A stretch of DNA of 62,874 nucleotides. Origin: Chloroflexota bacterium. GTDB taxonomy: Bacteria; Chloroflexota; Anaerolineae; J036; Brachytrichaceae. The notes beneath the pieces were generated by a model, which was not told where the DNA came from, made no database searches, and saw only the letters and a list, made by a program, of their open reading frames with translations. Shown here one piece after another: positions 52,604 to 58,867 of the stretch. The stretch covers positions 1 through 62,874 of the forward strand of contig JAUQQA010000011.1 of the NCBI GenBank assembly GCA_030550095.1, written 5' to 3'. Within the stretch, counting starts at the first letter, position 1; each line of letters opens with the position of its first letter. Both the position numbers and the translations under genes were made by a program.

Positions 52604-54481
52604 TCACTCGCGTCCTGGTCCTGGCGTCATTGGCGGGGGTGGTTTGTGTTGAGCGCGGCGTTGATCAAGCTGCGCCTTCACGCGCATCGGCAAGCCGAAC
52701 AAGCGGATGAATCCATCGGCGCTGCGTTGATCGTAAGCCTCGTCGTTGTTGAAGGTGGCGAGGTCTTCGCGGTAGAGCGAGTAGGTCGCTTTGCGCTGCA
52801 CCACCATTGCGTTGCCCTTAAACAGCCGCACGCGCACGCTGCCGGTCACGTCGCGCTGTGTGACGCTGATGAAGGCTTGCAACGCATCGCGCAGCGGTGT
52901 GAACCATTGACCGTTGTACACCAAGTCGGCGAACTTCAGCGCGACGATTTGCTTGAAATGCAGCGTCTCGCGGTCGAGTGTGATCTCCTCTAGCCCTTGA
53001 TGGGCAACGCGCAGGATCGTCGCTGCGGGTGCCTCGTCGAGCGCGCGCGATTTAATGCCCACCAGGCGATTCTCCACGATGTCCACGCGCCCGATGCCGT
53101 GCAGCGCGCCGATTTCGTTGAGCCGTTCGATAAGTTGTGCGCCGCTGAGTGCCTCACCGTTCAGCCGCTTCGGGATGCCGTTGAGGAACTCGATCTCGAC
53201 GTACTCCGGCGCGTCGGGCGTCTCTTCGATCGCGTTGGTCCACTTCCACAAGTGCTCTTCGGGTTCGTACTCGAGGTCTTCAAGTTTGCCGCCTTCGTGG
53301 TTGAAGTGCCACAAGTTCTCGTCGAGCGTGTAGAGGTCGTCGTCGAAATCGCCCACGGGCACGCCGCGCGCGCGCGCGTACTCGTACACGTCGCGCCGCC
53401 CTTTGAAAGGCCACTCGCGCCAAGGCGCGATCACGCGCAGCTCGGGTTTCAGCGCCATGTAGGTCAACTCGAAGCGCACTTGGTCGTTGCCCTTGCCTGT
53501 TGCGCCATGTGCCACAGCGTCGGCGCCTTCTTGCAAAGCGACGTCCACCTGATGCTTGGCGATCAGCGGGCGCGAGATCGAGGAGCCTAGCAGATACTTG
53601 TGTTCGTAGATCGCGCCGCTTTGAATGAGCGGGAAGAGGTACTCATTAGCGAACTCCTCGCGCAAATCGCGGATGATCACTTTGCTTGCGCCGATGCGCA
53701 GCGCTTTCTGACGCAGCGCCTCAAAGTCCTCGCGCTGGCCGATGTCGGCGAGGAAGCAGATCACCTCGCAGCCGTAATGTTCGATCAGCCACGGCACGCA
53801 AGCGGAAGAATCCAGACCGCCTGTGTACGCGAGCACCACCTTGCGCACGCCGCTGGTGTTGTTAGGCGCAGCGGCGTGTGTTGTGGCGCTCAGGCGCGTA
53901 ACTGTTTCGAGAGGGATGCGGTTCTCGCGGCTCACGGCGCGGCGTGCGATGCGCCCGGCGCGCACGGCTGCGAGCACCTGTGCGCGCATCTGTGTGGTGA
54001 TCGTGGGCGCTTGCTCGGGTTGCAAAGGCAGCATCACGGCGACCTCATCGCAGTTTTCCAGCATCGGACATTGCACGCAGTCGCTCCAAACCTTTTCGGG
54101 GAAGAACTCTTTTGGTGCGACGGAAAAACCGCACTTCTCGAAGAAGCGCACCGCGCGCGTCAGCGCGAAAATCGTGCCGAAGCGACGACGGCGCGCTTCT
54201 TCGACCAGCGCAGCCACGAGCTTTTGTCCCACGCCACTCCCGCGCGCGTGCTCGTCCACCGCTAGCGAGCGCAGCTCGACGAGCGTGGCGTTCATCGGCA
54301 GCAGCGACCCGCAACCAATCACGGCGCCTTTGTCGTCTTCAGCGACGAGAAAGTTGCCGAGATGTGCGCGGATGTTTGCTTCGCTGCGCGGCAGCAAGCC
54401 GCCACGACGTGCGTTGCGCGCGATCAGCGCCACAATCGCAGGCACGTCATCGTGGACAGCGGGACGGATGCGCACAGCCAT
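52604..54481 (-). CDS. Fusion of N-acetylglutamate synthase (GNAT) and argininosuccinate synthase
   Basis: A 625-residue two-domain protein. Residues 1-155 are a GNAT domain: VDEHARGSGVGQKLV is the acetyl-CoA loop, and FFEKCGFSVAPKEFFPEKVW followed by DCVQCPMLENCDEVAV is the Cys-containing ending of short ArgA-type N-acetylglutamate synthases. A linker of about 55 residues follows. Residues 212-605 are a standard-type argininosuccinate synthase with P-loop AYTGGLDSSACVPWL (usual form AYSGGLDTS), AHGATGKGNDQVRFEL and WREWPFKGRRDVYEYA. It would join the first committed step of arginine synthesis to the penultimate one. It lies 24 nt after the separate argG. Confidence 0.88.
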   Translation of the reverse strand: MAVRIRPAVHDDVPAIVALIARNARRGGLLPRSEANIRAHLGNFLVAEDDKGAVIGCGSLLPMNATLVELRSLAVDEHARGSGVGQKLVAALVEEARRRRFGTIFALTRAVRFFEKCGFSVAPKEFFPEKVWSDCVQCPMLENCDEVAVMLPLQPEQAPTITTQMRAQVLAAVRAGRIARRAVSRENRIPLETVTRLSATTHAAAPNNTSGVRKVVLAYTGGLDSSACVPWLIEHYGCEVICFLADIGQREDFEALRQKALRIGASKVIIRDLREEFANEYLFPLIQSGAIYEHKYLLGSSISRPLIAKHQVDVALQEGADAVAHGATGKGNDQVRFELTYMALKPELRVIAPWREWPFKGRRDVYEYARARGVPVGDFDDDLYTLDENLWHFNHEGGKLEDLEYEPEEHLWKWTNAIEETPDAPEYVEIEFLNGIPKRLNGEALSGAQLIERLNEIGALHGIGRVDIVENRLVGIKSRALDEAPAATILRVAHQGLEEITLDRETLHFKQIVALKFADLVYNGQWFTPLRDALQAFISVTQRDVTGSVRVRLFKGNAMVVQRKATYSLYREDLATFNNDEAYDQRSADGFIRLFGLPMRVKAQLDQRRAQHKPPPPMTPGPGRE

Positions 54482-54505: not shown

Positions 54506-55909
<1,404 letters not shown>

Positions 55910-55937: not shown

Positions 55938-56696
55938 TCACGAATTCACAAAGGTCGTGCCTTGATCGTGAGCTAGACCCGCAAGGTGCGCGATGCGCAC
56001 GCGCGCCACGCCAAGCGCAAGCGCATCCAGCGCTGTGCGCACCTTCGGGATCATGCCGCCGTGGATCACGCCCTGCGCGATGAGCGCTTCGGCTTGTGCG
56101 CGGGTGAGCTGCGGCAGCAACGCGCCGTTCGCGTCGAGCACGCCAGCGACATTTGTGATGAAAGTGAGCAAATGTGCGCCAAGCGCAGCGGCGATGGCGC
56201 CGGCAGCGTGGTCGGCGTTCACGTTGTAGATCGCGCCATCTTCGCCGAGCGACATCGGCGCGATCACGGGCACCCATCCTTGCGCGAGCAGCGCTCGCAG
56301 CCAATCAGCGCGCACGTGCGTTGGCTTGCCAACGAACATCAGCGCTTCGCTGATCGGCGCAGCGCGGATCAAGCCGCCGTCAACGCCGCTCAGGCCGATG
56401 GCGTCTATGGTGCGCGCCTGAAGCGCAGCGACCAAGCGCTTGTTGGTCAAGCCGCTCAACACCATCAGTGCGGCGTCGCGCGTCGGTGCGTCGGTCACAC
56501 GTAGCCCTTCGACGAAGCGCGTGGGCACGTTGAGCGCAGTGAGCAGCTCTGTGAGCGCCTTCCCACCGCCGTGCACGATCACCACGTGCTCGTTGTGGTT
56601 ACGCAGGGTGGCGACTGCCTCGGTCAAGCCAGTGATGAACGCTGCGTCGTCTAGCTCATTGCCGCCCACCTTGATCACATGCACGCGCGCGCTCAT
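55938..56696 (-). CDS. argB: N-acetylglutamate kinase
   Basis: A 252-residue kinase for the second step of arginine synthesis. Motifs: VIKVGGNELDD, VHGGGKALTELL, RFVEGLRVTDAPT, LSGLTNKRLVAAL and YNVNADHAAGAIA. The FVEGLRVTD segment favours N-acetylglutamate kinase over the LysW-aminoadipate kinase. The start overlaps the argC stop (ATGA). Confidence 0.9.
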   Translation of the reverse strand: MSARVHVIKVGGNELDDAAFITGLTEAVATLRNHNEHVVIVHGGGKALTELLTALNVPTRFVEGLRVTDAPTRDAALMVLSGLTNKRLVAALQARTIDAIGLSGVDGGLIRAAPISEALMFVGKPTHVRADWLRALLAQGWVPVIAPMSLGEDGAIYNVNADHAAGAIAAALGAHLLTFITNVAGVLDANGALLPQLTRAQAEALIAQGVIHGGMIPKVRTALDALALGVARVRIAHLAGLAHDQGTTFVNS

Positions 56697-57721
56697 CGCA
56701 AGCCCTCCTGCTCGTCGAAGCCGAACATCAGGTTCATGTTTTGAATTGCTTGCCCGCTCGCGCCTTTCACCAAGTTGTCAATGCACGAAACAATTTGCAG
56801 GCATCCTGGTAGGTCAGCGACGGGATGCACGGAGATCACCGCGTTGTTGGTGTGTGCGGCGTGGGCGATGGTGCTGATGCGCCCTGCTGGCAGCACGCGC
56901 ACGAATGGCTCTTCGGCGTAGCGTTGCGCGTAGCGCTGCTGCCAATCTTCGCGCGCGGCTTCGGGCTTCAGCCGCACGTAGATCATGCTCAACATGCCGC
57001 GCGAGATCGGCAACAGGTGTGGGCTGAACCAAACCTGCGTCGGTGCGCCGCGCACGGCGCTGAGTTCTTGCTCGATCTCGGGCACGTGGCGGTGGACATG
57101 CCCAATGTTATAAGGCGCAAGCGACTCGTTCACCTCGACGAAATGCGTGCTGAGTGTTGGCTTGCGCCCGGCGCCGCTCACGCCGCTCTTGCTGTCGGCG
57201 ATCACCAACGGCTCGGCGAGCGCGTCGGCTTCGAGCAGTGGTAGCAGCCCGAGCACGATGCTGGTGGGGTAACACCCTGGGTTAGCGACGAGGCGCGCCG
57301 TGCGGATGTGCGCGCGGTAGCGCTCGGGCAGACCGTACACTGCTTCGTTGAGCAAATGCGGAGCCGGGTGCTCGTGGCCGTACCAGTGCGCATAGGCACC
57401 TGGGTCGCGCAATCGGAAGTCGGCGGAGAGATCGATCACACGCGCGCCCGCCTCGAGCGCACGCTGACACAAAGCTGCGCTTGCGCCATGGGGCAAGCAA
57501 GAAAAAACAACGTCAACGCGATGCAGCGGTGCCTCGTCGGCAGCGACAAGCGTGAGGTCGAAGGGAAGGGGCAGCACGTCGCTGAGCACGGCGCCAGGGT
57601 TGCTCTCGCTGTGCACGAACGCGATCTGCACGTAGCGGTGGCGTGCGAGCCAGCGGAGCAACTCGGCGCCGGTGTAGCCCGTGGCGCCGAAGATGCCAAC
57701 GCGGATGTATGAACTGCTCAT
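56693..57721 (-). CDS. argC: N-acetyl-gamma-glutamyl-phosphate reductase
   Basis: A 342-residue NADPH-dependent reductase for the third step of arginine synthesis. Nucleotide loop GIFGATGYTGAELLRWL; catalytic Cys in VANPGCYPTSIVLGL; DSKSGVSGAGRKP and HRHVPEIEQEL near the active-site His. First enzyme gene of the operon, located 13 nt after the T-run of a strong terminator hairpin, with TTGAGG as ribosome-binding site. A LysY function, or a dual role, cannot be excluded by sequence alone. Confidence 0.93.
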   Translation of the reverse strand: MSSSYIRVGIFGATGYTGAELLRWLARHRYVQIAFVHSESNPGAVLSDVLPLPFDLTLVAADEAPLHRVDVVFSCLPHGASAALCQRALEAGARVIDLSADFRLRDPGAYAHWYGHEHPAPHLLNEAVYGLPERYRAHIRTARLVANPGCYPTSIVLGLLPLLEADALAEPLVIADSKSGVSGAGRKPTLSTHFVEVNESLAPYNIGHVHRHVPEIEQELSAVRGAPTQVWFSPHLLPISRGMLSMIYVRLKPEAAREDWQQRYAQRYAEEPFVRVLPAGRISTIAHAAHTNNAVISVHPVADLPGCLQIVSCIDNLVKGASGQAIQNMNLMFGFDEQEGLR

Positions 57722-57733
57722 GTTGCCTCAACG

Positions 57734-57768
57734 AAAAACGCCCCCAACACGTGTGTGTGTCGGGGGCG
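57734..57768 (-). terminator. Transcription attenuator (intrinsic terminator) before argC
   Basis: Minus strand: CGCCCCC pairs with GGGGGCG, continued inward by a G-T wobble and ACAC/GTGT, giving a 12-bp stem with loop ACACAC (57768-57739). TTTTT follows at 57738-57734. It lies between the arginine-rich leader ORF and argC. The CACACACG segment (57757-57750) is complementary to CGTGTGTG inside the leader ORF (57834-57827), so an antiterminator could compete with this hairpin. Confidence 0.85.
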
Positions 57769-57787
57769 TGGATGCCGCAGCCGTTGC

Positions 57788-57874
57788 TCACGCGATCGCA
57801 GCGCGTGCTGGCGTGCCCGCACCCGGCACACACGCGAGTGCGTTACGACGACGGTCACGCGCTGGTCGCTGCAT
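57788..57874 (-). CDS. Arginine-rich leader peptide (candidate argL) of the arg operon
   Basis: A 28-codon ORF beginning MQRPARDRRRN and ending in TGA 20 nt before the terminator hairpin. Six of 28 residues are Arg (positions 3, 6, 8, 9, 10, 24), with three successive CGT codons at 8-10. The ATG is 8 nt after a TATAAT box, so the ORF would be translated from a leaderless transcript. Inference: ribosome stalling at the Arg codons under arginine shortage frees CGTGTGTG downstream, which pairs with the terminator's inner segment and lets RNA polymerase reach argC. A hairpin GTGCC/GGCAC (57829-57813) inside the ORF may serve as pause structure. Confidence 0.68.
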   Translation of the reverse strand: MQRPARDRRRNALACVPGAGTPARAAIA

Positions 57875-57882
57875 GATGCCCA

Positions 57883-57888
57883 ATTATA
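57883..57888 (-). promoter_or_regulatory. -10 element of the arg leader/operon promoter
   Basis: TATAAT on the minus strand, 8 nt before the leader-peptide ATG at 57874. No good -35 is visible. It is divergent from the tRNA-Glu promoter, with 53 nt between the two -10 boxes. Confidence 0.65.
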
Positions 57889-57941
57889 AGCAACGAGCAA
57901 GCTTAGGCAGCGGCGCAGGCTTCCAGCGTGCCGCTTCGTGT

Positions 57942-57947
57942 TACAAT
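57942..57947 (+). promoter_or_regulatory. -10 element of the tRNA-Glu promoter
   Basis: TACAAT in the context GTTACAATCCC, 11 nt before the mature tRNA 5' end. The same -10 sequence as the leaderless protein genes, confirming that TACAAT is a real promoter element in this genome. Confidence 0.65.
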
Positions 57948-57958
57948 CCCTGCGTCTT

Positions 57959-58030
57959 GCCCCCATCGTCTAGTGGTCAGGACGCAGCCCTTTCAAGGCT
58001 GAAACACGGGTTCGAGTCCCGTTGGGGGCA
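57959..58030 (+). tRNA. tRNA-Glu (anticodon TTC)
   Basis: 72 nt forming a full cloverleaf. The acceptor stem GCCCCCA pairs with TGGGGGC, with discriminator A. The anticodon stem CAGCC/GGCTG encloses CTTTCAA, so the anticodon is TTC (Glu). The T arm ACGGGTTCGAGTCCCGT is canonical. CCA is not encoded. Glutamate is the precursor of the arginine pathway encoded next to it, which is probably coincidence. Confidence 0.96.
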
Positions 58031-58045
58031 ATGTTCCCCCTGGTC

Positions 58046-58867
58046 TCACTCCAGCCCTGCTTCAAAGCTCGCCTCAGTGAGGATAGACGCGCGGAGCGCC
58101 ATTGGGTCGAAGTGTGCGCCGCGCAGCACCGCGCGCGTGAAGTTGGTGCGGTTCAGGCTTGCCCGGCTGAGGTTCGCGCCGCGGAAGAGCGCGCGGCTGC
58201 AATCTGCCTCGTCCAGCATCGCGCCCATGAGCAACGCCTCGCTGAGATTAGCCTCGCGCAAGTTAGCGTACGGCAACTTGGCGTTGATCAAGCTCGCGCG
58301 CAAGAGGTGTGCCTGGCTTAAGTCCACGCCAACGGCGATTGCTTCATCGAGATTTGCATCGTTGAGTTCGACGCCGTTCATCTCGGCGGCGGTTAGCGTT
58401 GCGTAGCTCAGCACAACGCTGGTGAGTCGCGCGCGGGTGAGGTTTGCGTGTGAGAGATCGGCCGCGGTGAGGTCGGCGCGCGCCAAGCGTGCACGTTGCA
58501 AGGAAGCGCTGCGCAGGTTTGCGCCAGCCAGTTGTGCAGCTTCAAGCTCTGCCTCATCGAGCACAGCGTCGGCGAAACAGGCGCCGTCGGCGTGGGCATT
58601 GGTGAGCCGGGCGCCTACGAGCCGTGCGGCGGTGAAGTCGGCGTCAATCAAAGTTGCGCCTTCAAGTTGCGCTCCATCTAGCCAGGCGCTGCGCAAGTTT
58701 GCCCCTCGTAGGTCTGAGCCGCGGAGGTCGGCGTAGGCGAAGTTCAGCCCGTGTAGGTCTAAGCCGCTGAGGTCCACACCTGCGAGCCGCACCCCCCAGC
58801 GAACCTCTTCGCCGTGAGGGATCACGGCAAGGAGCCGGATCACCTCAAGCCGCGACAGTTCTGCCAT
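58046..58867 (-). CDS. Pentapeptide-repeat protein
   Basis: A 273-residue protein made mostly of A(D/N)LXX repeats from about residue 25 to 265 (for example LDGAQLEGATLIDADFTAA), which fold into a right-handed quadrilateral beta-helix. The first 20 residues (LSRLEVIRLLAVIPHGEEVR) are a short non-repeat cap. Some family members mimic DNA and protect gyrase; no specific role can be assigned. The start lies within the end of the acyl-CoA dehydrogenase gene (23-base overlap), so they are cotranscribed. Confidence 0.88.
   Translation of the reverse strand: MAELSRLEVIRLLAVIPHGEEVRWGVRLAGVDLSGLDLHGLNFAYADLRGSDLRGANLRSAWLDGAQLEGATLIDADFTAARLVGARLTNAHADGACFADAVLDEAELEAAQLAGANLRSASLQRARLARADLTAADLSHANLTRARLTSVVLSYATLTAAEMNGVELNDANLDEAIAVGVDLSQAHLLRASLINAKLPYANLREANLSEALLMGAMLDEADCSRALFRGANLSRASLNRTNFTRAVLRGAHFDPMALRASILTEASFEAGLE

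Follow-up and report, generated by a model that had tools for sequence, protein, structure and literature searches.

How a bacterium of the Anaerolineae, in the phylum Chloroflexota, controls arginine biosynthesis is the question raised by the region upstream of argC in the window (the whole stretch of DNA analysed, 62,874 nucleotides). Bacterial arginine biosynthesis is a textbook case of control by the ArgR repressor, and leader-peptide attenuation has been described for his, trp, leu, ilv, thr, phe and cys. An earlier note on this DNA had proposed a ribosome-mediated arginine attenuator before argC. That interpretation is supported here by conserved elements, by alternative pairings with covariation, by an association with argC only and by the absence of ArgR. 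From its sequence, the locus very probably holds a transcription attenuator of the trp/his type, with charged tRNA-Arg as its signal and the argC-argB-argG operon as its target.

The argC leader and its operon

The features of the locus are listed in Table 1. TATAAT, a 28-codon ORF with Arg at codons 3, 6, 8, 9, 10 and 24, a GC-rich hairpin and argC were found on the minus strand in the order given by the earlier note; the hairpin stem, put there at 12 bp, was counted as 13 pairs (including one G-U) around a 6-nt loop. The leader ORF runs from an ATG at 57874 to a TGA at 57790-57788 (minus strand). Its Arg codons are CGA (codon 3), CGT (6), CGT CGT CGT (8-10) and CGC (24), with five Arg within codons 3-10. 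CGT makes up 4/6 of the leader Arg codons versus 19/255 (7%) in nine neighbouring genes, where CGC reaches 79% (p = 4e-4). Segment 2 lies inside the ORF, 11 nt past the last CGT.

Table 1. Coordinates of the argC leader elements and of the genes of the operon
Feature	Position	Strand	Basis
-10 promoter element TATAAT	57883..57888	-	sequence; family loci
Leader peptide ORF, 28 codons, MQRPARDRRRNALACVPGAGTPARAAIA	57788..57874	-	sequence; Arg-rich ORF at the equivalent site in relatives
Putative sensor codons CGT CGT CGT (codons 8-10)	57845..57853	-	RR(x)R core kept in relatives with synonymous codon changes
Further leader Arg codons	57868-57866 and 57859-57857	-	sequence
Segment 2, proposed antiterminator 5′ strand, GTGTGTGCCGGGTGCGGG	57816..57833	-	pairs with 57771-57753; compensatory changes between families
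Candidate protector hairpin; could sequester segment 2 if the leader is untranslated or the ribosome stalls early	57791..57842	-	predicted fold
Intrinsic terminator, 13-bp stem (segments 3 and 4), then T's to 57734	57738..57769	-	fold; kept before argC in relatives
Shine-Dalgarno of argC, GAGG	57726..57729	-	sequence
argC, N-acetyl-gamma-glutamyl-phosphate reductase, first regulated gene	56693..57721	-	TIGR01850, 384 bits (cut-off 234)
argB, acetylglutamate kinase, start overlapping argC	55938..56696	-	TIGR00761
argG, argininosuccinate synthase, 447-aa type	54506..55903	-	NF003779
N-acetyltransferase domain fused to a second argininosuccinate synthase	52604..54481	-	NF005840, residues 3-153 (just below cut-off); NF001770, residues 212-606

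Folded alone, the terminator hairpin (57769-57738) has a free energy of -26.6 kcal/mol (z = -7.4), and it was the sole terminator-like site found in 56500-58800. Its end is separated from the argC start (57721) by 16 nt, into which a promoter would not fit, and every argC transcript must therefore pass it. Since the tRNA-Glu gene upstream of the leader (57958-58031, plus strand) is transcribed away from argC, the leader promoter is the sole evident source of argC transcription. The weakest element of the unit is the protector hairpin (57842-57791, -28.6 kcal/mol), the stability of which is no better than that of shuffles; some distant homologues, L024 and L028 among them, show CCAGAC..GTCTGG hairpins. 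Downstream, the acetyltransferase-ArgG fusion gene (52604-54481) is probably in the same operon as argC-argB-argG. Two ArgG types would then stand in one operon, one of them an unusual fusion with an acetyltransferase domain related to N-acetylglutamate synthases.

The spacing from TATAAT to the leader ATG is 8 nt in the window and 7-10 nt in 20/21 family loci, the remaining locus having TAGAAT. The -35 element is weak in the genus of the window (3/6); in several relatives it is a perfect TTGACA at 16 nt. Transcription is predicted to start at ~57877-57874, which would give a 5′ UTR of 0-3 nt and an mRNA that is leaderless or nearly so. In the genome, TATAAT-N5-8-ATG occurs 10 times (once in a reversed control), mostly at the starts of long, known-looking ORFs, and Chloroflexi genomes are reported to contain leaderless genes that carry a TATAAT signal (PMC3160421). 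Leaderless translation of the leader ORF is likely on these grounds. The spacing is also ~10 nt in family f58 and is at least 17 nt, with room for a Shine-Dalgarno site, in many other Anaerolineae; a leaderless start is a trait of some lineages and not of the attenuator as such. Nor is a leaderless leader peptide a new variant in itself, as the earlier note had supposed: Streptomyces lividans is reported to have leaderless leu, trp and ilv leader peptides (LeuL, TrpL and IlvL; PMC8079986), and PMC9094748 cites Canestrari (2020) for mycobacterial polycysteine ORFs that are leaderless. At another locus (L200, G000:C29) a TATAAT-led ORF of 7 codons (MFLQALA) stands ahead of a ribosomal protein S21-like gene.

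Conservation of the unit in Chloroflexota

ArgC orthologues were located in 60 relatives, in named species genomes and in 301 genomes of the phylum, and the DNA upstream was read in a selection of them. By ArgC, the nearest named relatives include Thermoflexales bacterium SKYG100 (87%) and Candidatus Roseilinea sp. (74%). Of the genomes searched, 46 have the unit before argC: 21 belong to the family of the window, 15 to other Anaerolineae families and 10 to f58 and f83, taken to be Chloroflexia. For numbered families other than that of the window, the names Chloroflexia, Ktedonobacteria and Dehalococcoidia were assigned from genome size and relatives. Two Anaerolineae loci, L134 and L190, in which the Arg run is poor or absent, were excluded from the 46. 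In the 46, among them all 21 readable same-family loci, the promoter, a short ORF with an Arg run, segment 2, the terminator and argC are present; in L004 the short Arg ORF is present and segment 2 is weak. Named Chloroflexi MAGs carry the unit as well (L039-L045, L054, L056, L088 and L098). What flanks the unit varies from one relative to another; the unit therefore travels with argC. The Arg codons, the terminator and the complementary segment with compensatory changes, which the earlier note had named as support to be sought upstream of argC in related genomes, were found in many families.

A covariance model (R1) built from 15 family members gave one strong match per genome, always directly before argC, and also picked out a single locus from a different family (G036, E = 7e-4). 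Weak extra matches in G029, G022 and G024 were set aside as chance; they fall in unrelated sequence, none before arginine genes. Among the upstream argC regions read, the unit was not seen at loci outside Chloroflexota, where Arg-containing matches often resemble the end of a ribosomal protein gene, nor in families f48 and f43 (small, Dehalococcoidia-like genomes) and several other members of the phylum. Members of f48 (L117, L122, L125 and L129-L133) have argC with neither the attenuator nor an ArgR match. A search of the window and 13 other argC-upstream loci against Rfam returned no attenuator family.

In the window sequence alone the Arg-rich leader ORF is only suggestive (p = 0.025, 2000 dinucleotide shuffles), and the high Arg frequency of GC-rich DNA weakens such single-sequence tests. 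Over 23 loci, one per family or lineage, the Fisher-combined shuffle p was 4e-10; as judged from these sequences, conservation puts the Arg-rich leader far beyond chance. The leader peptides MVAIEIRFRRPR, MVYQVRSLNNRYPRRPR, MLRRADRRRVR and MLTNLFSPALRLRRPR have little in common except Arg, and both leader length and the peptide outside the Arg residues vary between families. Depending on the lineage, the Arg runs are spelled CGT, CGC, CGA (six in L118) or AGG (four in L031). Since Arg is retained under different codons, the comparison points to selection of leader Arg at the amino-acid level.

The earlier note had put forward an 8-nt complement, CGTGTGTG/CACACACG, as a plausible antiterminator. 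The complement exists, but a longer, conserved register pairs better: GTGTGTG.CGGG.GCGGG (57833-57816) with 57771-57753, at -27 kcal/mol as a duplex, which invades the GC-rich 5′ arm of the terminator beyond the CACACACG tract. Segment 2 and the terminator 5′ arm read GTGTGTCCGG/CCTGACACAC in the family of the window, and GTCTGG/CCAGAC, GTCCGG/CCGGAC, GTTCGG/CCGAAC or GTTCAG/CTGAAC elsewhere; in the genus of the window one antiterminator pair is a C-A mismatch. When the leaders and terminators of 28 loci were combined, duplexes from the same species had a mean of -20.7 kcal/mol and mismatched species -16.5 kcal/mol (permutation p = 5e-5). In the alignment of an 8-nt core 92.8% of cells were paired, a percentage biased upward by the picking of segments with complementarity in view; two-sided compensatory changes, readable directly in the sequences, affected 5/8 pairs. 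The covariation score was 0.489; shuffles gave 0.214, and slid segments no more than 0.119. The own-versus-foreign duplex test and the Fisher-combined Arg test are less biased than the core alignment.

Proposed switch and rival explanations

From the sequence we infer where transcription starts, that translation is leaderless, that the ribosome stalls and in which direction regulation runs. Transcription would begin just past TATAAT, and the leader ORF would be translated at once from a leaderless or near-leaderless mRNA. With ample arginine, the ribosome would pass the CGT run and segment 2, the hairpin 57769-57738 would fold and transcription would end before argC. If charged tRNA-Arg runs short, codon 8, 9 or 10 would occupy the A site of a stalled ribosome, which would cover the RNA to ~57835 and leave segment 2 (57833-57816) free to pair with the emerging 5′ arm of the terminator, which would not form in time, and argC would be transcribed.

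A ribosome covers the RNA for ~12 nt beyond its A site. With this footprint, a stall at codons 8-10 leaves RNA free from 57840-57834, just before segment 2. For that stall, with nascent RNA to 57753, the predicted fold is the antiterminator (-40.1 kcal/mol) and segment 2 is free to form it, in agreement with the earlier suggestion that stalling at codons 8-10 would expose the antiterminator strand. A stall at codon 3 is predicted to hide segment 2 in another hairpin, and a ribosome that has reached codon 24 or the stop codon leaves the terminator as the one remaining fold. At equilibrium the completed terminator wins in every ribosome state, and the switch would therefore have to be kinetic, decided during transcription, as is usual for attenuators.

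Other explanations of the locus were weighed against an attenuator. The hairpin could be the ordinary terminator of the pentapeptide repeat protein gene upstream (58867-58046, minus strand), the short ORF being there by chance. That gene is on the same strand and no other terminator-like site was found in the region, but the hairpin stands ~280 nt downstream of it, beyond the opposite-strand tRNA-Glu, and an ordinary terminator would fit poorly with upstream sequence that is wholly different in relatives while the unit stays with argC, with the want of room for a promoter between the hairpin and argC, or with the covariation of segments 2 and 3. We regard this explanation as barely credible. 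The ORF could instead encode a functional small protein that its Arg residues serve, and RxRRxR and VSG are indeed well conserved within the family. VSG, however, is encoded by segment 2 itself (GTGTCCGG), and between families the Arg residues alone persist while length and the other sequence vary, so that a small protein is extremely improbable.

Arginine might also act via Rho, RNase or argC translation, in an arrest-peptide or RNA-stability system like that of Salmonella speF orf34, where two consecutive Arg codons respond to arginine (PMC6386406). Against this stand the intrinsic terminator with its U-tract in nearly every homologue, the covariation of segment 2 with the 5′ arm of that terminator, and a peptide that, unlike arrest peptides, is not conserved between families outside Arg; a system of this kind is very unlikely here. 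The likeness to speF orf34 lies in consecutive leader Arg codons that read arginine supply. It controls ornithine decarboxylase and not an arginine biosynthesis gene, and it acts via Rho termination, RBS masking and RNase G without an intrinsic terminator, whereas the Chloroflexota leader has one (PMC6386406). The attenuator remains the reading that we prefer.

Other regulators and known attenuators

ArgR was searched for with two Pfam models: PF02863 had no match in 60 relatives (0/60; positive controls such as E. coli and B. subtilis were matched), and PF01316 had none in the genome of the window organism (controls positive). Within the phylum ArgR is present in 72/301 genomes and in 0/46 of those with the attenuator; conversely, the attenuator was missing in 8/8 ArgR-bearing genomes in which the region upstream of argC was read (G073, G132, G160, G172, G176, G223, G284 and G287). 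A Fisher test of ArgR against the attenuator drew on rough counts and was set aside in favour of these raw numbers. This mutual exclusion is suggestive, and it is not independent evidence because the distribution of both follows phylogeny. ARG box-like palindromes such as TTGCATAATTATGCA occur just before argC in several ArgR-bearing Chloroflexota (L150, L170, L175 and L178). No match to the T-box (RF00230) was found in the window, where the Rfam search found the tRNA alone. The argC leaders of large-genome, Ktedonobacteria-like members (L221-L224) match RF00230 with E = 3e-15 to 8e-6, below the gathering score.

The ilvB operon of the same genome (L227, G000:C9) is preceded by a branched-chain leader ORF, MNSLLLVVVVLALLVL..., containing LLLVVVVLALLVL, and by a terminator in which CCTAAACGGG is the exact 10-nt complement of CCCGTTTAGG in the leader (segment 2/3). 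By its sequence this region is a leader-peptide attenuator for branched-chain amino acids, and given this leader peptide and complement, the organism would use the same design elsewhere. Upstream of a trpE-like gene (L225, G000:C4), GGGTGGCACCACG is followed by a hairpin, which suggests a T-box; hisG appears, from its upstream region, to lie inside an operon.

Leader-peptide attenuators of the trp/his/thr/leu type are known in Proteobacteria and Actinobacteria (PMC2965389, PMC1262725; model in PMC1183508). The argC leader resembles them in its ORF rich in codons for the end product, its alternative antiterminator and terminator, and the first biosynthetic gene downstream; it differs in sensing arginine, in its Chloroflexota host and in matching no Rfam family. 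It would share with the Streptomyces lividans and mycobacterial leaders an attenuator ORF at or near the mRNA 5′ end, but those concern other amino acids and another phylum, and the leaderless state here is predicted from promoter spacing only. ArgR with its ARG boxes and T-box leaders control the same genes elsewhere, including, by gene content or model match, in other Chloroflexota; here ArgR genes are absent and the window has no T-box match.

A search of open-access papers found no earlier report of an arginine-specific leader-peptide attenuator of arginine biosynthesis. What is new is that the device is specific for arginine, that it extends over Anaerolineae and part of Chloroflexia, and that ArgR is excluded; the class of mechanism is itself classical. 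On balance, we favour the view that this is the first known arginine-specific attenuator of an arginine biosynthesis operon, that it took the place of ArgR in these lineages, and that in the Roseilinea-like family it works from a leaderless mRNA, sensing from the first codon. The argC gene appears to be served in one phylum by three devices (ArgR, T-box or an Arg leader peptide), which opens the exchange of regulators for one pathway to study. The element is short and well defined, suited to testing attenuation from leaderless mRNAs, and it may be how ArgR-less Chloroflexota control arginine.
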